From: Gemmatimonadota bacterium
GTDB lineage: Bacteria > Gemmatimonadota > Gemmatimonadetes > Gemmatimonadales > Gemmatimonadaceae
Direction: 5' to 3'
DNA: 47,341 bases
Assembly (NCBI GenBank): GCA_003221805.1
Contig: QHUA01000002.1
Location: forward strand, 24,300 to 71,640
In this document: piece after piece, positions 24,406 to 32,384 of the stretch
How the letters are laid out: each line of letters begins with the position of its first letter
Numbering within the stretch: the stretch's first letter is position 1
Made by a program: the position numbers and the translations under genes
The notes under the pieces: model-generated
The model's input: the letters and a program-made list of their open reading frames with translations, nothing else
The model's database searches: none
What the model was told of the DNA's origin: nothing

Positions 24406-25197
24406 ATGCCTGCCAACAACGATCGACCGAGAGACAGGAACGTACCCCCTCGCAACGTGGTGAGGGAGTCCCGTTCGTCAAATCGGCCGAAGGCTTTCTT
24501 CTGGATCCTGGGACTCATCGCGCTGGTTGGCGTTGCCGCACTCGGTTATGTAGTCAGCAAGCCAAAGTCGCGTCCGGTTCAAAGCGTCCGCGACATTCCT
24601 GATACGACCAACGCCGGCCCACCCCAGGGTTACCTGATAGGCAAAGTCGATGCCCCGGTAAAGATCAGCGAGTACGCCGATTTTGAGTGCCCGTCGTGTG
24701 GTGGGTGGGCGACCGTCACGGAGCCGGATGTTCGTTCGCGCATCATCAACGCCGGACTCGCCAACCTGACCTACTACGACTTTCCGCTCAATATGCATCG
24801 GAACACGGTCGCGGCATCGAACGCTGCGGCGTGCGCGGACGAGCAGGGCAAATTCTGGCCCATGCACGATCGCATCTTCCAGGCGCAGGACGAGTGGAAT
24901 GGCGAGGCAACCGAACAACCAAAACCATTCTTCAAGCGGTACGCGGGTGAAATCGGGCTGGACGTCGCCAAGTGGGAGGCCTGCTACGACGCGCGCAAAT
25001 ACCAAAAGCGCATCGAGGCGAATCTCGCCGACGGGCTCCGGCACGGAGTGAATTCGACCCCCACGTTCGTCATCGGGAACAAGTTGTATCCGGGCATGCG
25101 CACCTACGATGAGATGAAATCGCTGGTCGACTCTTTGGCCAGGACGGCGGCCCCGGCAGCAAACAGCGCTTCCACGACACCAGCGAAGAAGAAGTGA
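24406..25197 (+). CDS. DsbA-like membrane-anchored disulfide oxidoreductase
   Basis: The 263-aa protein has an N-terminal cytoplasmic tail, one membrane anchor (~31-51) and a thioredoxin-4/DsbA-like domain. The active site is F-E-C-P-S-C-G (Cys95 and Cys98), and the cis-proline loop is seen as V-N-S-T-P-T-F-V-I-G-N-K. It should oxidise or isomerise cysteines of exported proteins in the periplasm. The stop overlaps the start of a VKOR-family gene, its expected re-oxidant. The C-terminal tail is rich in Ala, Thr and Lys. Confidence 0.88.
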   Translation: MPANNDRPRDRNVPPRNVVRESRSSNRPKAFFWILGLIALVGVAALGYVVSKPKSRPVQSVRDIPDTTNAGPPQGYLIGKVDAPVKISEYADFECPSCGGWATVTEPDVRSRIINAGLANLTYYDFPLNMHRNTVAASNAAACADEQGKFWPMHDRIFQAQDEWNGEATEQPKPFFKRYAGEIGLDVAKWEACYDARKYQKRIEANLADGLRHGVNSTPTFVIGNKLYPGMRTYDEMKSLVDSLARTAAPAANSASTTPAKKK

Positions 25198-25634
25198 CGA
25201 AGCGGATGATCGTGGCCACGCTCGCGCTGGCCGGGATCTTCATCAGCCTGTACCTCACTCTCTACAAGATCGGCGTCATCGGCGAGCTGAGCTGCAGCAT
25301 TGGCTCGTGCGAAACGGTCAACACGAGCAAGTGGTCGCGATTCTTGGGACTCCCAGTCGCGGCGTGGGGCCTGTTGTTCTACCTAGACTTGTTCGCGATC
25401 GCGTTGATCGGAATGTTTCCGCGCTTTGAGAACGAGCGGGTCATTTCGATAGTGCTCGTCGCCGAGACCGTCGTTGGCGTCCTGTTCTCGGCGTGGCTGA
25501 CCTACCTGGAGCTGGCGGTCCTACACGCGATATGCATTTGGTGCGTGACGTCGGCGGTCATAGTCACGGTGATTTTGGTGGTCTCGGTTTTCGATCTTAA
25601 GGACAACTACCTGCTGGGCGCTGCCAGCAACTAA
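25194..25634 (+). CDS. Vitamin K epoxide reductase (VKOR) family protein
   Basis: The 146-aa polytopic protein has the VKOR cysteine layout: a loop pair Cys34/Cys39 (L-S-C-S-I-G-S-C-E-T-V) and a membrane-edge redox pair Cys114/Cys117 (C-I-W-C). Bacterial VKORs use quinones to re-oxidise DsbA-like proteins, replacing DsbB. The GTG start at 25194 overlaps the DsbA-like stop (GTGA), so the two form a disulfide-forming module. The last codons lie inside the left arm of a long palindrome that begins at 25617. Confidence 0.9.
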   Translation: MTKRMIVATLALAGIFISLYLTLYKIGVIGELSCSIGSCETVNTSKWSRFLGLPVAAWGLLFYLDLFAIALIGMFPRFENERVISIVLVAETVVGVLFSAWLTYLELAVLHAICIWCVTSAVIVTVILVVSVFDLKDNYLLGAASN

Positions 25635-26260: not shown

Positions 26261-26800
26261 TTACGGAGATGTCAGCGTCAACACTATGGACAGGCTGTAG
26301 TTACCCGGCGTGTCGAGGGTCCAGTTGTAGAGCGTCTGGAAGTAGAGAGTTGCCGCGGTATTCGCTGTGGCGGTCCCGCTGATGAGATTGGCGTCGGTGC
26401 TTGTCAACGCCGCGAAACCTCCGCCCGACGCCAGGCTCCATTGGAGATCCGTGGCGGGTTTGTTCGCCCGCGCCGGAGCACCGGGCGATGTGTTGGTCGC
26501 CGTCCATAAAGCTGAAGCAGCCCGGATGTGGAGCGTCCACGCCGCGTTGGCGCTGACCGTGAGTGTCGGACCGGTCGTAGAATTGAATCCGGCGTCGAAA
26601 TCCGAAGTCGTGGGCGCCGTTAGAGCGGTCGAGCCAACACCCATCTGGAGGCGCACGACGCGTCCAGCAGTCATCAAGACGCTTCCCGGGACGCCACAGT
26701 TGGCAGGCGCGCCGTTCGCGGTACACTGCGCGAGCGAGATCCTAGGCGCAACCACCGCGCACAGCATAGTTGCGATTGTGGCGATTAGACCGCGCCTCAT
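26261..26800 (-). CDS. Secreted fibre-subunit-like protein C
   Basis: The 179-aa protein has a signal peptide ending near I-S-L-A-Q. The mature part is one beta-rich domain homologous to the products at 30089-30583 and 31469-32008. Shared landmarks are A-P-T-T-S-D-F-D-A-G, A-A-W-T-L-H-I-R, D-L-Q-W-S-L-A-S-G-G and a C-terminal strand P-G-N-Y-S-L-S-I-V-L-T-L-T-S-P. That last motif resembles the final strand of spore-coat-U-like subunits of chaperone-usher fibres. Two cysteines lie in the first 15 mature residues. The ATG overlaps the lipoprotein stop. It is the last gene of the operon. Confidence 0.72.
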   Translation of the reverse strand: MRRGLIATIATMLCAVVAPRISLAQCTANGAPANCGVPGSVLMTAGRVVRLQMGVGSTALTAPTTSDFDAGFNSTTGPTLTVSANAAWTLHIRAASALWTATNTSPGAPARANKPATDLQWSLASGGGFAALTSTDANLISGTATANTAATLYFQTLYNWTLDTPGNYSLSIVLTLTSP

Positions 26801-27255
26801 TGGCTCACCCGCTCAACTCTAAATGTTCCCGACGTCATTGTTCCGTCCGTGGCCGATCCTACCCAGGTACCGGAAACCGTGTCAGCAACGATCTGACCGA
26901 CGTGACGACGCGGATTCGTTTCCACATCGGCATCAAAATCGATGACGTCGCCACCGCTCTCAGACCCGCTGACAAGCCCGCCGAGCACTCTGCTTTGTCC
27001 GGTCTGCGAATTGACGGCCACCAGGTCGAGGCGCCCCTGAAAACTGGTGCCCGATTCGCGAGAGATACTGAGCGTTCCCGTGAGAGTTTCGCGCACCGGT
27101 CCCGTCTGGATTCCAGTGTAATTCCACGATCCATCGAGCTGCAGAGTAGACGGCTGCGGCTCGGTCGATTTCAGGCATCCCGAGACCAGGGCCGCGCCAA
27201 CCAGCGTCAGCGAACCTGTCATCAAGCGCAGTCGCGTCGAGAAAACGCGCATCAT
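26797..27255 (-). CDS. Lipoprotein of the usher-like operon
   Basis: The 152-aa protein has a signal sequence ending in the lipobox V-S-G-C. About 120 residues of predicted beta structure follow (G-S-W-N-Y-T-G-I-Q, G-T-L-S-I-S-R-E, G-T-F-R-V-E-R). The repeated G-T/G-S-W-x turns suggest a small barrel or lipocalin-like sandwich. No family was recognised. It overlaps the usher-like gene upstream (ATGA) and subunit C downstream, so it is coupled to both. A role as an outer-membrane pilot, or as anchor or tip of the fibre, is inference from position only. Confidence 0.7.
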   Translation of the reverse strand: MMRVFSTRLRLMTGSLTLVGAALVSGCLKSTEPQPSTLQLDGSWNYTGIQTGPVRETLTGTLSISRESGTSFQGRLDLVAVNSQTGQSRVLGGLVSGSESGGDVIDFDADVETNPRRHVGQIVADTVSGTWVGSATDGTMTSGTFRVERVSQ

Positions 27256-30092
27256 GACCCGCTCGTGTTGGGAGTGGTGCTCGACGGCGTGTCATTCCTC
27301 TGCCCGCCACTCTTCGTTCCGCCGTTCCACATGCGAATCGGTCGCGGATCCAGAGTGATGGCGATCGACTTGGAGTCCTTCCCGGTGACGATGAGCTGCG
27401 GAACCGGCGCCCGCGGAACGAGTGGCTCGCTCAGCTCGGATAAATCGAACTCGAGAGTGTACGTTCCCACCGGAAGCGACTGGAATGTGGCAGTTGTCGG
27501 CCCGCTCATGATCGCGCCCCACTCACGGCCGGCGCTGTCGCGCGCGATGACGTGTGCCTTGCTCAGATCGACCTGGACTGCGGAGATGCCCGAGCGCGGC
27601 GCAACTACCAGCTCGACTTCCGCACTGGTGGAGAGTGAAACGCCGAGATCCCCGCGGCTCGGGCCATTTGCCGACCAACCGTCTGGCAGTGACGCTTCAT
27701 CGATGCTGACCGGCTGTCTGGCATCGCCGCCCAGGCGGTACTTTCCGGTCTCGTCAGCGACGGCGGTCTCGCCACCGCGTCTGACAATCGCCCCGGCAAC
27801 TCCCGGTTCGCCTTCATCGCGGCGCTGGTTTCCGTTCAGGTCTTCATAGACGTAGCCCGATGTGCCCGGCGTGCGCAGCATCGGCACCGTGATAGCGTGC
27901 TCGAAACGAATCCCAAGCACCCACGGCACCTTTCCGCTCACGGAGTGGAAGATCGAATTGCGCTCTGCATCCACCTTGAACGCCATCCCACTCAGGATCG
28001 GTACGGCCAGGCCGGCGCGCATAATCGACGACTTCTCGTCGCCGAAGCCATTTACGCGCTGTAGCTCGCCCTCGCCGCGAATTCCGCCGAGGAAGGGGAG
28101 AACGACCTGCTCGCCGTGAATGCCGAATACGCTCTGTTGATTCACGAATCCACCTCTGTCCCGCGTCTGCTCGATGCGCATCTGCAGCTCGAGAGCACCG
28201 CCGACGCCGGCCCAGCCGGCATTGCTCGTCCAGTAATTCCTCGGTGTGCGATCCGAGATGGTGTTTTGCCCGAATGGGGTGACGGTGCGCGTCACGTTTC
28301 CGAGGTAGGCGGCGCTATTCAGGTAATACTGGCGCAGGTAGGTGCTGACGCTGAAACCGAGCTGCTGCTCGCGACTGCCGAACGCATCGGCATTACCGGA
28401 CGCCGCCGGGCGCGAAGTTGCCTCAAAGAGGTAGGACCTGCCCTCGAGTGCGACCGTCGTTGTGCCGTAAACTCTGTACTGCGGGCGGAAAGAGAATCCG
28501 TTCGACTTCAGCCCGCTGAATACCGACGTTGCGTCAGTGGTCCGCCACGCGCTGCCGCTGATTGAGGCGCGCGAGGACAGTTGCTCGGACGCGTTCGCTA
28601 CCAGCTCATTGGTGGCGCGCGCGTATGCATCGCTGCCACCTGGCGCGTGTGTTACGCGAAGCTCCTCGTTGCTTTCACCCGCCGTTCTCACCAGAGAGCT
28701 AGACCAGCCGAGGCCGTCTCCGTCCTGGAATCGCCGCTCAGCGACCTCCGCCTTAAAGGTGCTGCCGAGAAATACGGGAACAGCAGCGCCGATTCCAAAC
28801 GCGTCCAGTTTACGTGGCGCCGGCCCGGCATCGGCCAGATGCGAGATCGAGGTGAACAACTGCGCGACTCCGACCTGGTGTTCCGCGCGCAGTCCCGCCA
28901 TCGGCTTCCGGTCGGTGGAGCCGACGGGCGGCATGGACAACGCGCCAAATGTCAGAACATTCCAGTCTGGATGCTGGAGGTGCAACAGCGCGCCCTGCCC
29001 GTAAGGATAGAGACCGGTGAGCTCGGAGAATGAAGTGCCGGTATTGCCGAGACTGAGCTGGCCGGACGGTGCTGACAGAACCATCGACGCCGACGACTGG
29101 TAGCTGCCCAGATGCGCGAAGGCATTGCTGGCTGCCCCGCCGAGTGCTGACCCTTGAGAGACGCGCGCGTCGATGCGCACGGAATCGTAGAGCGCGCCGG
29201 TGGCGGTGAAGGTGACGAGTTGATTCGGCCGTCGGTTCTCGTCTACAGCATGCGAGTAGGCGGACGTAATCAGCGGACCCGACTGGCGTCCGATGGAGCT
29301 GGAGTTGAAAACCTCGATCGTCATCGTCTCCGCCGCGAGCGTGTCTTTTCCAACCAGCAGAGCGACGTGAACGAAGGATGATCCGGTGCTGGAGAGCGCG
29401 GGAATCTTCAGTCTGAGGCGTCGTTTCACGGTCTCTCCCGGGGCGATCGCCAGCGCAGACGCGTGTATCTCACGCATCGACCAACCAGTCGGAAGCTCGA
29501 GCTCGGTGTTCACGTTCTCGACGGCGTTTCCCGAGTTCGCGATCTCAAACGGGAGGATGACGTCGCTGCCTGGCTGGGCGTTGAGCGGTCCGGTGCCCGG
29601 ACGCAGCACCAGATTGCGAACGAGAGTGACATCGATCTCGATTGGCACGACCAGGGTCGATGCGTTGGGCGCAATGAAGTGCGCCTCGGCGGCGACTACT
29701 CGCCCAGCGAGTGCACTCGCCGGAATCCCGATTGTGATTCCCACTTTCTTCTGTCCGGCGCGGACGTTGATGGTCCGCGTGCGCGGTCCGAGGACGGCAA
29801 ACTCTGCCTTGGGAACGATCACGACTTCGACGTCGGATGAATGCGCCAGAGCCTCGGGGATCGGAATCGAGACGACCTGGTACGTGCGTGGCGCACCGCT
29901 AGCTGTCACGGGTGGTAGCGCGACCTCGAGCGCACGAGGTGAGTCCGATTTTGCGGTGACGGCGAAGCTTCCAGAAGGCGAGAAGCTCGGCTGTGCGGTT
30001 GTCGGCGACGACTGCGCCCCCGCTGAGATGGCGAGGGCGCACAATACGACCACTGACATGGCGGCGACGGACGCGCAGCGGGAGATCGTCAC
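27252..30092 (-). CDS. Usher-like outer-membrane beta-barrel protein
   Basis: The 946-aa exported protein has a signal peptide (V-V-V-L-C-A-L-A-I-S-A-G-A-Q). Immunoglobulin-like domains follow at ~45-270, the second like a NEW3 domain with V-I-L-P-F-E-I-A-N-S-G-N-A. Then comes a long region of alternating amphipathic strands (~270-740) consistent with an outer-membrane barrel. At ~746-800 is an SdrD-B/usher-type domain with G-Y-V-Y-E-D-L-N-G-N-Q-R-R-D-E-G-E-P and G-K-Y-R-L, followed by a C-terminal beta domain. Fimbrial ushers have a barrel with such C-terminal domains. I start at the GTG that overlaps the subunit B stop (GTGA). Flanking chaperone and subunit genes support an usher role, but overall similarity to classical ushers is weak. 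Confidence 0.65.
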   Translation of the reverse strand: MTISRCASVAAMSVVVLCALAISAGAQSSPTTAQPSFSPSGSFAVTAKSDSPRALEVALPPVTASGAPRTYQVVSIPIPEALAHSSDVEVVIVPKAEFAVLGPRTRTINVRAGQKKVGITIGIPASALAGRVVAAEAHFIAPNASTLVVPIEIDVTLVRNLVLRPGTGPLNAQPGSDVILPFEIANSGNAVENVNTELELPTGWSMREIHASALAIAPGETVKRRLRLKIPALSSTGSSFVHVALLVGKDTLAAETMTIEVFNSSSIGRQSGPLITSAYSHAVDENRRPNQLVTFTATGALYDSVRIDARVSQGSALGGAASNAFAHLGSYQSSASMVLSAPSGQLSLGNTGTSFSELTGLYPYGQGALLHLQHPDWNVLTFGALSMPPVGSTDRKPMAGLRAEHQVGVAQLFTSISHLADAGPAPRKLDAFGIGAAVPVFLGSTFKAEVAERRFQDGDGLGWSSSLVRTAGESNEELRVTHAPGGSDAYARATNELVANASEQLSSRASISGSAWRTTDATSVFSGLKSNGFSFRPQYRVYGTTTVALEGRSYLFEATSRPAASGNADAFGSREQQLGFSVSTYLRQYYLNSAAYLGNVTRTVTPFGQNTISDRTPRNYWTSNAGWAGVGGALELQMRIEQTRDRGGFVNQQSVFGIHGEQVVLPFLGGIRGEGELQRVNGFGDEKSSIMRAGLAVPILSGMAFKVDAERNSIFHSVSGKVPWVLGIRFEHAITVPMLRTPGTSGYVYEDLNGNQRRDEGEPGVAGAIVRRGGETAVADETGKYRLGGDARQPVSIDEASLPDGWSANGPSRGDLGVSLSTSAEVELVVAPRSGISAVQVDLSKAHVIARDSAGREWGAIMSGPTTATFQSLPVGTYTLEFDLSELSEPLVPRAPVPQLIVTGKDSKSIAITLDPRPIRMWNGGTKSGGQRNDTPSSTTPNTSGS

Positions 30093-30583
30093 GGCACCGT
30101 CTGCGAAAGAGTGATCTGATAATTCGCCGAGTAAGTCGCCGGCGCGTCGCTGGTCCAGTTGAGGACCATGCGGAAAAAGATCGTGTTGTTCCACGGATCG
30201 TTCAGCGCGTTTCGCACTACCACGCGCTGCTCGACCTGGGCGTCGGTGAGAGTGATGCTGTTCCAGGTCGCGAGATCGGAACGACGCCACTGGAGATCGC
30301 CAATCACCTTACCATTTCCGAGATCCGCGGAAGTCGAGCGGATTGAAATAGTGGTTGTGCGCGACGCCCCGGTTTGCGCGGCGACCGTGAAGGTGGCGCC
30401 GGTTGTCGAGTTGACAAACCCGGCGATGTAATCCGCCGCGGTCGGGGCCGGAAAGGTGATCGTCCCACCGCTAACTGTAAGATTGGTTTTCTGTGCTGCC
30501 AGCGGAGATGCGACGAATACCAGGACGAGCAAGATAGCCGCACTGGTGCTAACGCCTCGGAGCTTCCGCTGAAGCGCGCGCAT
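30089..30583 (-). CDS. Secreted fibre-subunit-like protein B
   Basis: The 164-aa protein has a signal peptide (I-L-L-V-L-V-F-V-A-S-P-L-A-A-Q). The single beta domain is paralogous to subunits A and C: F-P-A-P-T-A-A-D-Y-I-A-G, V-I-G-D-L-Q-W-R-R and a C-terminal A-T-Y-S-A-N-Y-Q-I-T-L-S. Unlike A and C it lacks the two cysteines after the cleavage site. It sits between chaperone and usher-like genes, starts 6 bases after the chaperone stop and overlaps the usher-like start. Its different N-terminus could mean a distinct position in the fibre (inference). Confidence 0.72.
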   Translation of the reverse strand: MRALQRKLRGVSTSAAILLVLVFVASPLAAQKTNLTVSGGTITFPAPTAADYIAGFVNSTTGATFTVAAQTGASRTTTISIRSTSADLGNGKVIGDLQWRRSDLATWNSITLTDAQVEQRVVVRNALNDPWNNTIFFRMVLNWTSDAPATYSANYQITLSQTVP

Positions 30584-30589
30584 CGATCG

Positions 30590-31465
30590 TTACTTGGCCT
30601 GGTAATCGATCTGGCCGGCAACGAGCTCGGCGCCGCCAAAATCGATCAGCGCGAGCACGACGTAATCGCCAGCAGCGAGATCACTGGGCACGTCGACGAG
30701 AACTTTGCGTATCGCTCCCGGAAGCGTCGGGAACTCCGCGATTGGCACCTGGGCAGCGAGCGAGTTGTCGAGACGCCGGAACTCGAGGCGTCCTTTGGCG
30801 ACGAGATTCATGCTGCCCGTATTGTGAAAGCGAATCGCGATCTGGTGCTTGGCGGCCGGCTTCTGCCCCGATGTCGAAGATGCAGGCTTCGCAATTGGAG
30901 CGTCGACGACAGCCATGTCTTCAACCGCGCCGTCGCGGGAAAGGCCCGGCGGTGCGACGTAGACTTTCACGCCGGTGCGGAAGATGTACTGCAGTGAATT
31001 GCCTTTGGAGGTCGTGCGCTGCGGCACTTCTTCGACGAAGACGATGTCCCAGCACTCTCTCGTCAGCGCGGCGCCGGTCTGAACCGCGAGGCGAACGACG
31101 CGCGAGCCATGTGGCTCGATGCGCACGGAAAGTGGTGAGACGCTCAACATCGAGCCGCACGACATCCCGCTCGAACCCGCTGCGAGAAAGCGATTGTCGC
31201 CGTTCTCGGCGCGGTCCCAGTCGGAGCGAGAGATCGTCGCCTGGACCGGACTGTCGGTGGTATTCGTGAGGGAGAAGCTCGACGCCACGCGATTGGTACC
31301 GGCGGCAAGGATCGTCACTTCGAGCGGATCTACGAGCAGCTGCGCTGACGCTCGCTGCGAGACCACCAACCCCCCTACAGCGCAGAGGGCGAGCACGGCA
31401 CACCGTACTCGCCCTCTGCGCTCTGCGCTCGCCCTTGCGGGCAAGCGAGAGCCAGAATGATACAT
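30590..31465 (-). CDS. PapD-like periplasmic chaperone
   Basis: The 291-aa exported protein has a signal sequence (~22-42, ending R-A-S-A-Q) and two immunoglobulin-like domains. Domain 1 has S-F-S-L-T-N-T-T-D-S-P-V, L-S-V-S-P-L-S-V-R-I-E-P-H-G-S and E-C-W-D-I-V-F-V-E-E-V-P. It ends in L-Q-Y-I-F-R-T-G-V-K-V-Y-V-A-P, which aligns with the G1 strand and hinge of PapD; Lys167 falls where PapD has its subunit-anchoring lysine. The anchoring Arg of PapD is not evident. A Ser/Lys-rich linker (~195-205) precedes domain 2. It begins 3 bases after subunit A. A hairpin overlaps its signal-peptide codons. Confidence 0.75.
   Translation of the reverse strand: MYHSGSRLPARASAERRGRVRCAVLALCAVGGLVVSQRASAQLLVDPLEVTILAAGTNRVASSFSLTNTTDSPVQATISRSDWDRAENGDNRFLAAGSSGMSCGSMLSVSPLSVRIEPHGSRVVRLAVQTGAALTRECWDIVFVEEVPQRTTSKGNSLQYIFRTGVKVYVAPPGLSRDGAVEDMAVVDAPIAKPASSTSGQKPAAKHQIAIRFHNTGSMNLVAKGRLEFRRLDNSLAAQVPIAEFPTLPGAIRKVLVDVPSDLAAGDYVVLALIDFGGAELVAGQIDYQAK
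31379..31422 (-). promoter_or_regulatory. Perfect 15-bp hairpin inside the 5' part of the chaperone gene
   Basis: AGCGCAGAGGGCGAG (31379-31393) and CTCGCCCTCTGCGCT (31408-31422) are exact reverse complements with a 14-base loop. In the mRNA this GC-rich stem lies 44-87 bases into the chaperone coding region, shortly after subunit A. Stems at such positions in fimbrial operons can protect the upstream subunit mRNA or limit downstream expression. Here that is inference. Confidence 0.6.
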
Positions 31466-31468
31466 CAG

Positions 31469-32008
31469 TTACGGAGCCGTGAGGGTGAACACGATCGGCA
31501 AGCTGTAGGTACCAGGTGCGTTGCTCGCGCTCGTGAAGTCGCTCAACCAACTGGTGCGGAAGAACGCCTGGGCCGCCGTGCCGTTGCTCGCGCCCGCGCC
31601 AGAAGCAAAGGTCGCGTCGGAGCCGGTGATCGCGGTGAAGGTTCCACCAGAAGCAGTCGACCAGGCAAGATCGCCGATCGGCTTCACACCGGAGTTGCTG
31701 CCTACGTACGTCCAGTTCGTGGCGTTCTGTGACTTGATCTTCAGCGTCCAGCTTCTGTTCGCCTTGATCGTGAAGCTCGGGCCTCCGTCGGCGATGACAT
31801 TGCCGGCGTCGACGTCGTCAGCCGTCGGGTTCGTCAGGCTCGTGGTGGCCGAGCCCATACCGAGCTTGACCAGCGCGCCAACGGTAACCGAGGCAGTGTT
31901 AGTGGTGTTGCAGCTGCCAGCGTTGCCGCTGCACTGCGCGTTGGCCTGGCTCGCGCCGATGGCTGTTGCAAGCACCATCGCGGCCAACAGGGAACGGGTC
32001 GCATTCAT
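31469..32008 (-). CDS. Secreted fibre-subunit-like protein A (first operon gene, probable major subunit)
   Basis: The 179-aa protein has a signal peptide ending A-S-Q-A-N-A-Q. The mature protein starts C-S-G-N-A-G-S-C with two close cysteines. The beta domain is paralogous to subunits B and C: L-T-N-P-T-A-D-D-V-D-A-G, R-S-W-T-L-K-I-K, P-I-G-D-L-A-W-S-T-A-S-G-G and the end P-G-T-Y-S-L-P-I-V-F-T-L-T-A-P. I start at the ATG at 32008, with GGAGAG ten bases upstream; an upstream in-frame start is unnecessary. Its first position, good ribosome site and following hairpin fit the most highly made subunit (inference). Confidence 0.75.
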   Translation of the reverse strand: MNATRSLLAAMVLATAIGASQANAQCSGNAGSCNTTNTASVTVGALVKLGMGSATTSLTNPTADDVDAGNVIADGGPSFTIKANRSWTLKIKSQNATNWTYVGSNSGVKPIGDLAWSTASGGTFTAITGSDATFASGAGASNGTAAQAFFRTSWLSDFTSASNAPGTYSLPIVFTLTAP

Positions 32009-32384
32009 GTTTGTTTTCTCTCCGAGAGTTTTGATGGTGCCGGTCACTAGCCAAAGCTGAAAACCGGTCCGTTCAAAGCGGTTGGGTAGTCCACCTATAA
32101 GACGAAAACGGACCCCTCCTGCAACGAGTTTTTCACCCGTTTTGTGGAGAGAAATCCGTTGACTTTTTCGCGCTGATTCGCGCGTAAAATCCTGTCGTTT
32201 TGCCGGCGAGTTAAGGCCTCCGGCAGGGCCTCAATCCAAAGGAATCCCTGACGCGTCAAGGAAAGATTTTAGACATTCCGGCCAGCGCCAAAATGCGTCG
32301 GAGTTTGTTCGGTTCTCAGGCCTAACGCTTTGCCCGTAAAGGAGATTAGGCTCGTGCTGCTCGGCTCGGTGGCCTGATAGAAAA
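32009..32384 (-). promoter_or_regulatory. Non-coding leader/promoter region of the usher-like operon
   Basis: These 376 bases carry no convincing gene. They contain an 8-bp inverted repeat, GGTCCGTT (32066-32073) and AACGGACC (32107-32114), around a possible -10 box (CTTATA on the minus strand, with TTGCAG 17 bases upstream). Further up are short GC stems, GCGCG/CGCGC near 32180 and CCGGC/GCCGG near 32205-32225. AT content is higher than in the neighbouring genes. I compared it by eye with the c-di-GMP-I riboswitch and found no convincing match. Confidence 0.45.

Follow-up and report, generated by a model that had tools for sequence, protein, structure and literature searches.

A probable chaperone–usher pilus operon with a divergent usher and a conserved lipoprotein in Gemmatimonadota

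A six-gene operon on the minus strand of a 47,341-nucleotide stretch of DNA from a Gemmatimonadota soil bacterium (the window; positions 26261–32008) very likely encodes a chaperone–usher pilus system, from a branch whose complete form has so far turned up in Gemmatimonadota alone. Homology and structure models support a PapD-like chaperone, a diverged usher, three homologous subunits with a pilin fold and a conserved, probably outer-membrane lipoprotein, and from these we infer that the six genes very probably serve to make hair-like fibres on the cell surface along the chaperone–usher route. We file the system as a new variant of the pathway, outside its archaic and classical branches; the original prediction of a new branch with an added lipoprotein agrees with our genome survey. 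New beyond that prediction are an usher barrel in which no plug-sized insertion is seen, the co-occurrence of usher and lipoprotein, and a subunit (B) without an N-terminal extension and its cysteine pair.

The six genes lie in the predicted order (subunit A, chaperone, subunit B, usher, lipoprotein, subunit C) on one strand, with the expected 4-base overlaps at the subunit B–usher, usher–lipoprotein and lipoprotein–subunit C junctions and a spacing of six bases between the chaperone and subunit B. A synteny check found the same gene order in other genomes; members of the order retain this set of genes, and the usher–lipoprotein overlap is seen again in many relatives. Promoter and terminator scans of the locus performed no better than on shuffled sequences, and an Rfam search gave no match. 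A plus-strand gene pair with a 4-base overlap (24406–25634), encoding a DsbA-like thioredoxin and a VKOR protein, adjoins the operon. It was considered as a disulphide partner and no link is claimed, as the pair lies beside the operon only in genomes of the same genus.

The second gene (30590–31465, minus strand) encodes a periplasmic chaperone of the PapD family with 291 residues. The protein matches Pfam PapD_N (PF00345) at 1e-8, above the curated gathering cut-off, and a profile built from 20 relatives finds CupB2 as its best match among solved structures (7.5e-5), together with YadV, EcpB, CsuC and PapD. The PapD-like G1 strand with a lysine that had been noticed in the sequence is real: Lys167 lies in the G1-like strand IFRTGVKVYV, and the position is lysine in window-type chaperones and arginine in L082 (alignment A6). 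At the presumed position of the classical strand-A1 arginine, the window chaperone has a proline (within VDPLEV); a subset of relatives, L067 and L068 among them, has arginine there. A pair of cysteines (residues 103 and 138) is retained in many family members and could form a disulphide.

Subunits A (31469–32008), B (30089–30583) and C (26261–26800), all on the minus strand, constitute one family, since an iterated profile search from any one of them recovers the other two. A and C (179 residues each) share 40% identity, and B (164 residues) is 31% identical to C over their shared part. We start subunit A at an ATG followed by a signal peptide; the mechanically called reading frame begins farther out, at a GTG at 32047. 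An AlphaFold model of mature A (155 residues; pLDDT 84.8, pTM 0.75) retrieves TLP-1a, PapA (5flu, 3.7e-4), CfaB, CsuA/B and FimG in a Foldseek search, with TM-scores of about 0.5. The small proteins thus have the incomplete Ig fold of chaperone–usher pilins, A by model match and B and C by sequence homology to A. The C-terminal Y-S-L-x-I-x-x-T-L-T-x-P strand that had been ascribed to all subunits is present in A and C, and B ends instead in YSANYQITLSQTVP. The proposed likeness to spore-coat-U subunits extends to fold class and has no support in sequence: SCPU (PF05229) has no Pfam match in the subunits or anywhere in the window genome, and HHalign against SCPU domains gives a nonsignificant 11.5%. 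This assignment was dropped.

In the monomer model of A, the first 22 residues lie outside any strand, as expected if they form a free extension. The mature N-terminus of A carries this extension with a pair of cysteines, and the extension of about 20 residues in A and C is proposed to serve as the donor strand. When B is aligned with C, it begins some 20 residues further in, and this difference follows gene position in the relatives. Where a subunit gene lies between those of chaperone and usher, the stretch ahead of a common anchor has a median length of 22 residues and never contains two cysteines; for the other subunits the median is 44 residues, and 41 of 45 have at least two cysteines (Mann–Whitney p 1.5e-6, the related sequences not being independent). 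The comparison of anchor distances covers subunits with a callable cleavage site; the simple rule used to call it failed for 15 subunits, window B included. Since a subunit with no donor strand can take only a terminal place, the short N-terminus suggests that B is the tip or initiator subunit and A and C the polymerising pilins.

A different role for these proteins, in which the barrel would secrete or display single-domain Ig proteins with the PapD-like protein acting as a holdase and no polymerisation taking place, is consistent with the occurrence of PapD-like folds in WxL-interacting proteins, one of which (EfmWxLIP1) is weakly matched by the chaperone profile, and with the fact that fibre formation is itself inferred. 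We consider this very improbable: each locus has several homologous subunits, of which two carry an N-terminal extension and one lacks it, the subunit fold matches are polymerising pilins and the best matches of the barrel are ushers. A fibre remains our reading.

The usher gene (27252–30092, minus strand, GTG start) encodes 946 residues. A Pfam scan finds an NEW3 (NPCBM_assoc) Ig-like domain (PF10633, 5.5e-10; residues 173–242, positions 29367–29576) and a sub-threshold SdrD_B domain, and nothing else; there is no PF00577 usher match in this protein or in the window genome, in keeping with the earlier observation that no FimD-type similarity is obvious. The AlphaFold model (17 homologues; pLDDT 77.5, pTM 0.50) contains an N-terminal β domain, the Ig/NEW3 domain, a run of about 26 barrel strands in about 460 residues (approximately residues 274–735, positions 27888–29273) and two β domains (approximately residues 744–916, positions 27345–27863), the first of which is SdrD_B-like. 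The anticipated usher-like barrel is thus modelled as a large barrel, and its best matches among solved structures are FimD and PapC, which fill ranks 1–11 of a Foldseek search of the PDB (E 1.3e-12 to 3e-10), far ahead of TonB-dependent receptors (about 1e-6). Ig-rich ciliary proteins also match (4e-9), and part of the score is due to generic Ig domains. TM-scores to FimD are low (0.2–0.3), so we take the likeness to FimD and PapC as one of fold class and not of geometry: at that level the model has the organization of ushers, in which an N-terminal domain and a barrel of about 24 strands are followed by two C-terminal domains, but a pTM of 0.50 and such TM-scores do not establish that the barrel is closed or how the domains are arranged.

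In direct HHalign comparison, the window usher matches classical ushers weakly (72% for one alignment and 19% for a second), and its profile matches only SdrD B domains among the sequences of solved structures; we therefore made the link through a further group of ushers in the phylum, termed type III, and through the fold. The alignment of type III ushers to the window usher has a probability of 99.5% and takes in the last 252 columns, where the barrel ends and both C-terminal domains follow; their alignment to classical ushers reaches 98.2% and spans 568 columns, plug region included. With this bridge, the window protein is most plausibly a genuine usher that has been remodelled. The FimD plug comprises roughly 80 residues. 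The longest gap between strands in the window model is about 22 residues, so no plug insertion is seen. Without the FimD/PapC plug, and with an NEW3 Ig domain instead, gating of the window usher would have to differ from that of FimD and PapC.

The operon could alternatively encode an ordinary archaic-type pilus with a drifted usher that keeps a FimD/PapC-like plug and gating, the lipoprotein being an incidental passenger. The chaperone profile is indeed nearest to the archaic CupB2, and the C-terminal domains of the window usher are common to plug-bearing ushers of the phylum. This explanation is nevertheless improbable, given an NEW3 domain N-terminal to the barrel, subunits without SCPU similarity and a barrel without a plug-sized insertion between its predicted strands, in contrast to the plug-like segment of type III ushers. 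The distribution of the lipoprotein also argues against it.

The lipoprotein gene (26797–27255, minus strand) encodes 152 residues with a lipobox cysteine, Cys27, that is invariant throughout the family; judged from the lipobox, the protein is probably bound to the outer membrane. Searches of Pfam and the PDB returned chance-level matches (Lipocalin_5, 0.059; GNA2132, 1.6) and no recognisable family, and we therefore claim no fold. In a set of 395 Gemmatimonadota genomes, a full-length window-type usher is present in 34 and a strong lipoprotein match in 32, with thresholds placed at clear score gaps. All 32 are among the 34, and none of the 361 genomes without a full-length usher has the lipoprotein (Fisher p 4e-45, uncorrected for relatedness). 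Nine of the 32 have the lipoprotein gene on the other strand or on a separate contig, and its association with the usher is therefore more than operon linkage; this tracking, unlinked cases included, is not what an incidental passenger would show. The lipoprotein is not universal: it is undetected in G149 and G352, which have full-length divergent systems. Both genomes come from a family that is more distant within the class, which suggests that the lipoprotein was added within the order.

Its role would most likely be to help fold, hold or close the usher barrel. A more far-reaching and less likely reading, by analogy with LptE and LptD, is that a plugless usher depends for gating or folding on a separate outer-membrane lipoprotein, which would make a two-component usher unlike any described. 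That the lipoprotein is instead a component or anchor of the surface fibre seems rather unlikely. Its gene sits between those of the usher and the last subunit, and its probable attachment to the outer membrane would suit an anchor; against this, an iterated search places it outside the subunit family, and the lipid anchor is found on it and on none of the subunits. We thus retain the barrel partner as the preferred role.

In the mechanism that we propose, the subunits would reach the periplasm via Sec, where the G1 strand of the chaperone would complete the incomplete Ig fold of each subunit and Lys167 would hold its C-terminus. Chaperone–subunit pairs would then dock on the usher and donor-strand exchange would join the subunits, with the donor strands assigned from sequence only. 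Subunit B, having no N-terminal donor extension, could not be added behind another subunit and would form the tip or the start of the fibre; A and C, with extensions of about 20 residues, would form the shaft.

Full-length window-type ushers thus occur in 34 of 395 phylum genomes, and many further genomes have shorter matches, most of them C-terminal. Classical ushers are all but missing from the phylum: PF00577 scores above its cut-off in one of 150 phylum genomes, and SCPU in two. In a pattern-based scan of the collection, full-length relatives were found solely in Gemmatimonadota among the 80 of 134 loci listed. They include Candidatus Benthicola, which we assign to Gemmatimonadota on the basis of an equally good match in G352, from the same class; absence of the branch elsewhere is not proven. 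A search of the open-access literature on chaperone–usher systems and Gemmatimonadota found no paper; PMC4793230 mentions chaperone–usher and Gemmatimonadetes and does not treat the phylum's own systems. In Omnitrophota (L113, L114 and L116), a PapD/WxLIP-like gene is followed by one for a protein of about 950 residues that starts with TPRs and ends in SdrD_B-like domains, possibly another usher-like export system. These loci were rejected as members of the branch because the usher-like protein is TPR-led and aligns over its C-terminal part only.

Two further usher types in the phylum resemble that of the window. Type III ushers (L096, L209–L214 and L216–L218) occur in many genomes next to a PapD-like chaperone gene and share with the window usher the SdrD_B-like and second C-terminal domains, but have a plug-like segment and align to classical ushers along most of their length. 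They mostly fall under Pfam usher detection (L096 has a sub-threshold PF00577 match), and no window-type lipoprotein matched in the type III loci read. Type II ushers (L084, L086 and L088) align with the window usher over almost their full length (HHalign 99.3–99.7%) and have Ig/NEW3-like similarity at the N-terminus; in the loci read, a single subunit gene precedes that of the chaperone, and a lipoprotein of the window type is lacking. The window genome (C76) itself contains a second chaperone, of type II (L085), with an upstream subunit-like gene, on a contig that ends before any usher. A classical archaic-type chaperone–usher cluster with SCPU subunits (L097, in G101) is rare in the phylum.

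With archaic pili (Csu, CupB/CupE), the window system shares a PapD-like chaperone, an usher and several homologous pilins, and the CsuA/B fold matches subunit A. It differs in having no SCPU subunits and an usher that PF00577 misses and in which no plug insertion is seen, and it adds NEW3 and SdrD_B-like domains and a dedicated lipoprotein. Classical type 1 (Fim) and P (Pap) pili provide the best structural matches of the usher model and share the presumed G1-strand lysine of the chaperone and a PapA-like subunit fold. Sequence similarity to them is very low, no plug is seen, the N-terminal-strand arginine of the chaperone is not kept, and the proposed tip is, unlike theirs, a single-domain subunit without a lectin domain.

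Surveys based on the usher profile PF00577 would miss window-type systems, as the counts of one in 150 and 34 in 395 genomes indicate. If our reading is correct, profiles underestimate how widespread chaperone–usher pili are outside Proteobacteria, ushers can do without an internal plug and an usher system can count an outer-membrane lipoprotein among its fixed parts. With its plug-bearing type III, plugless window-type and type II ushers, the phylum would offer a natural series for the study of usher gating.
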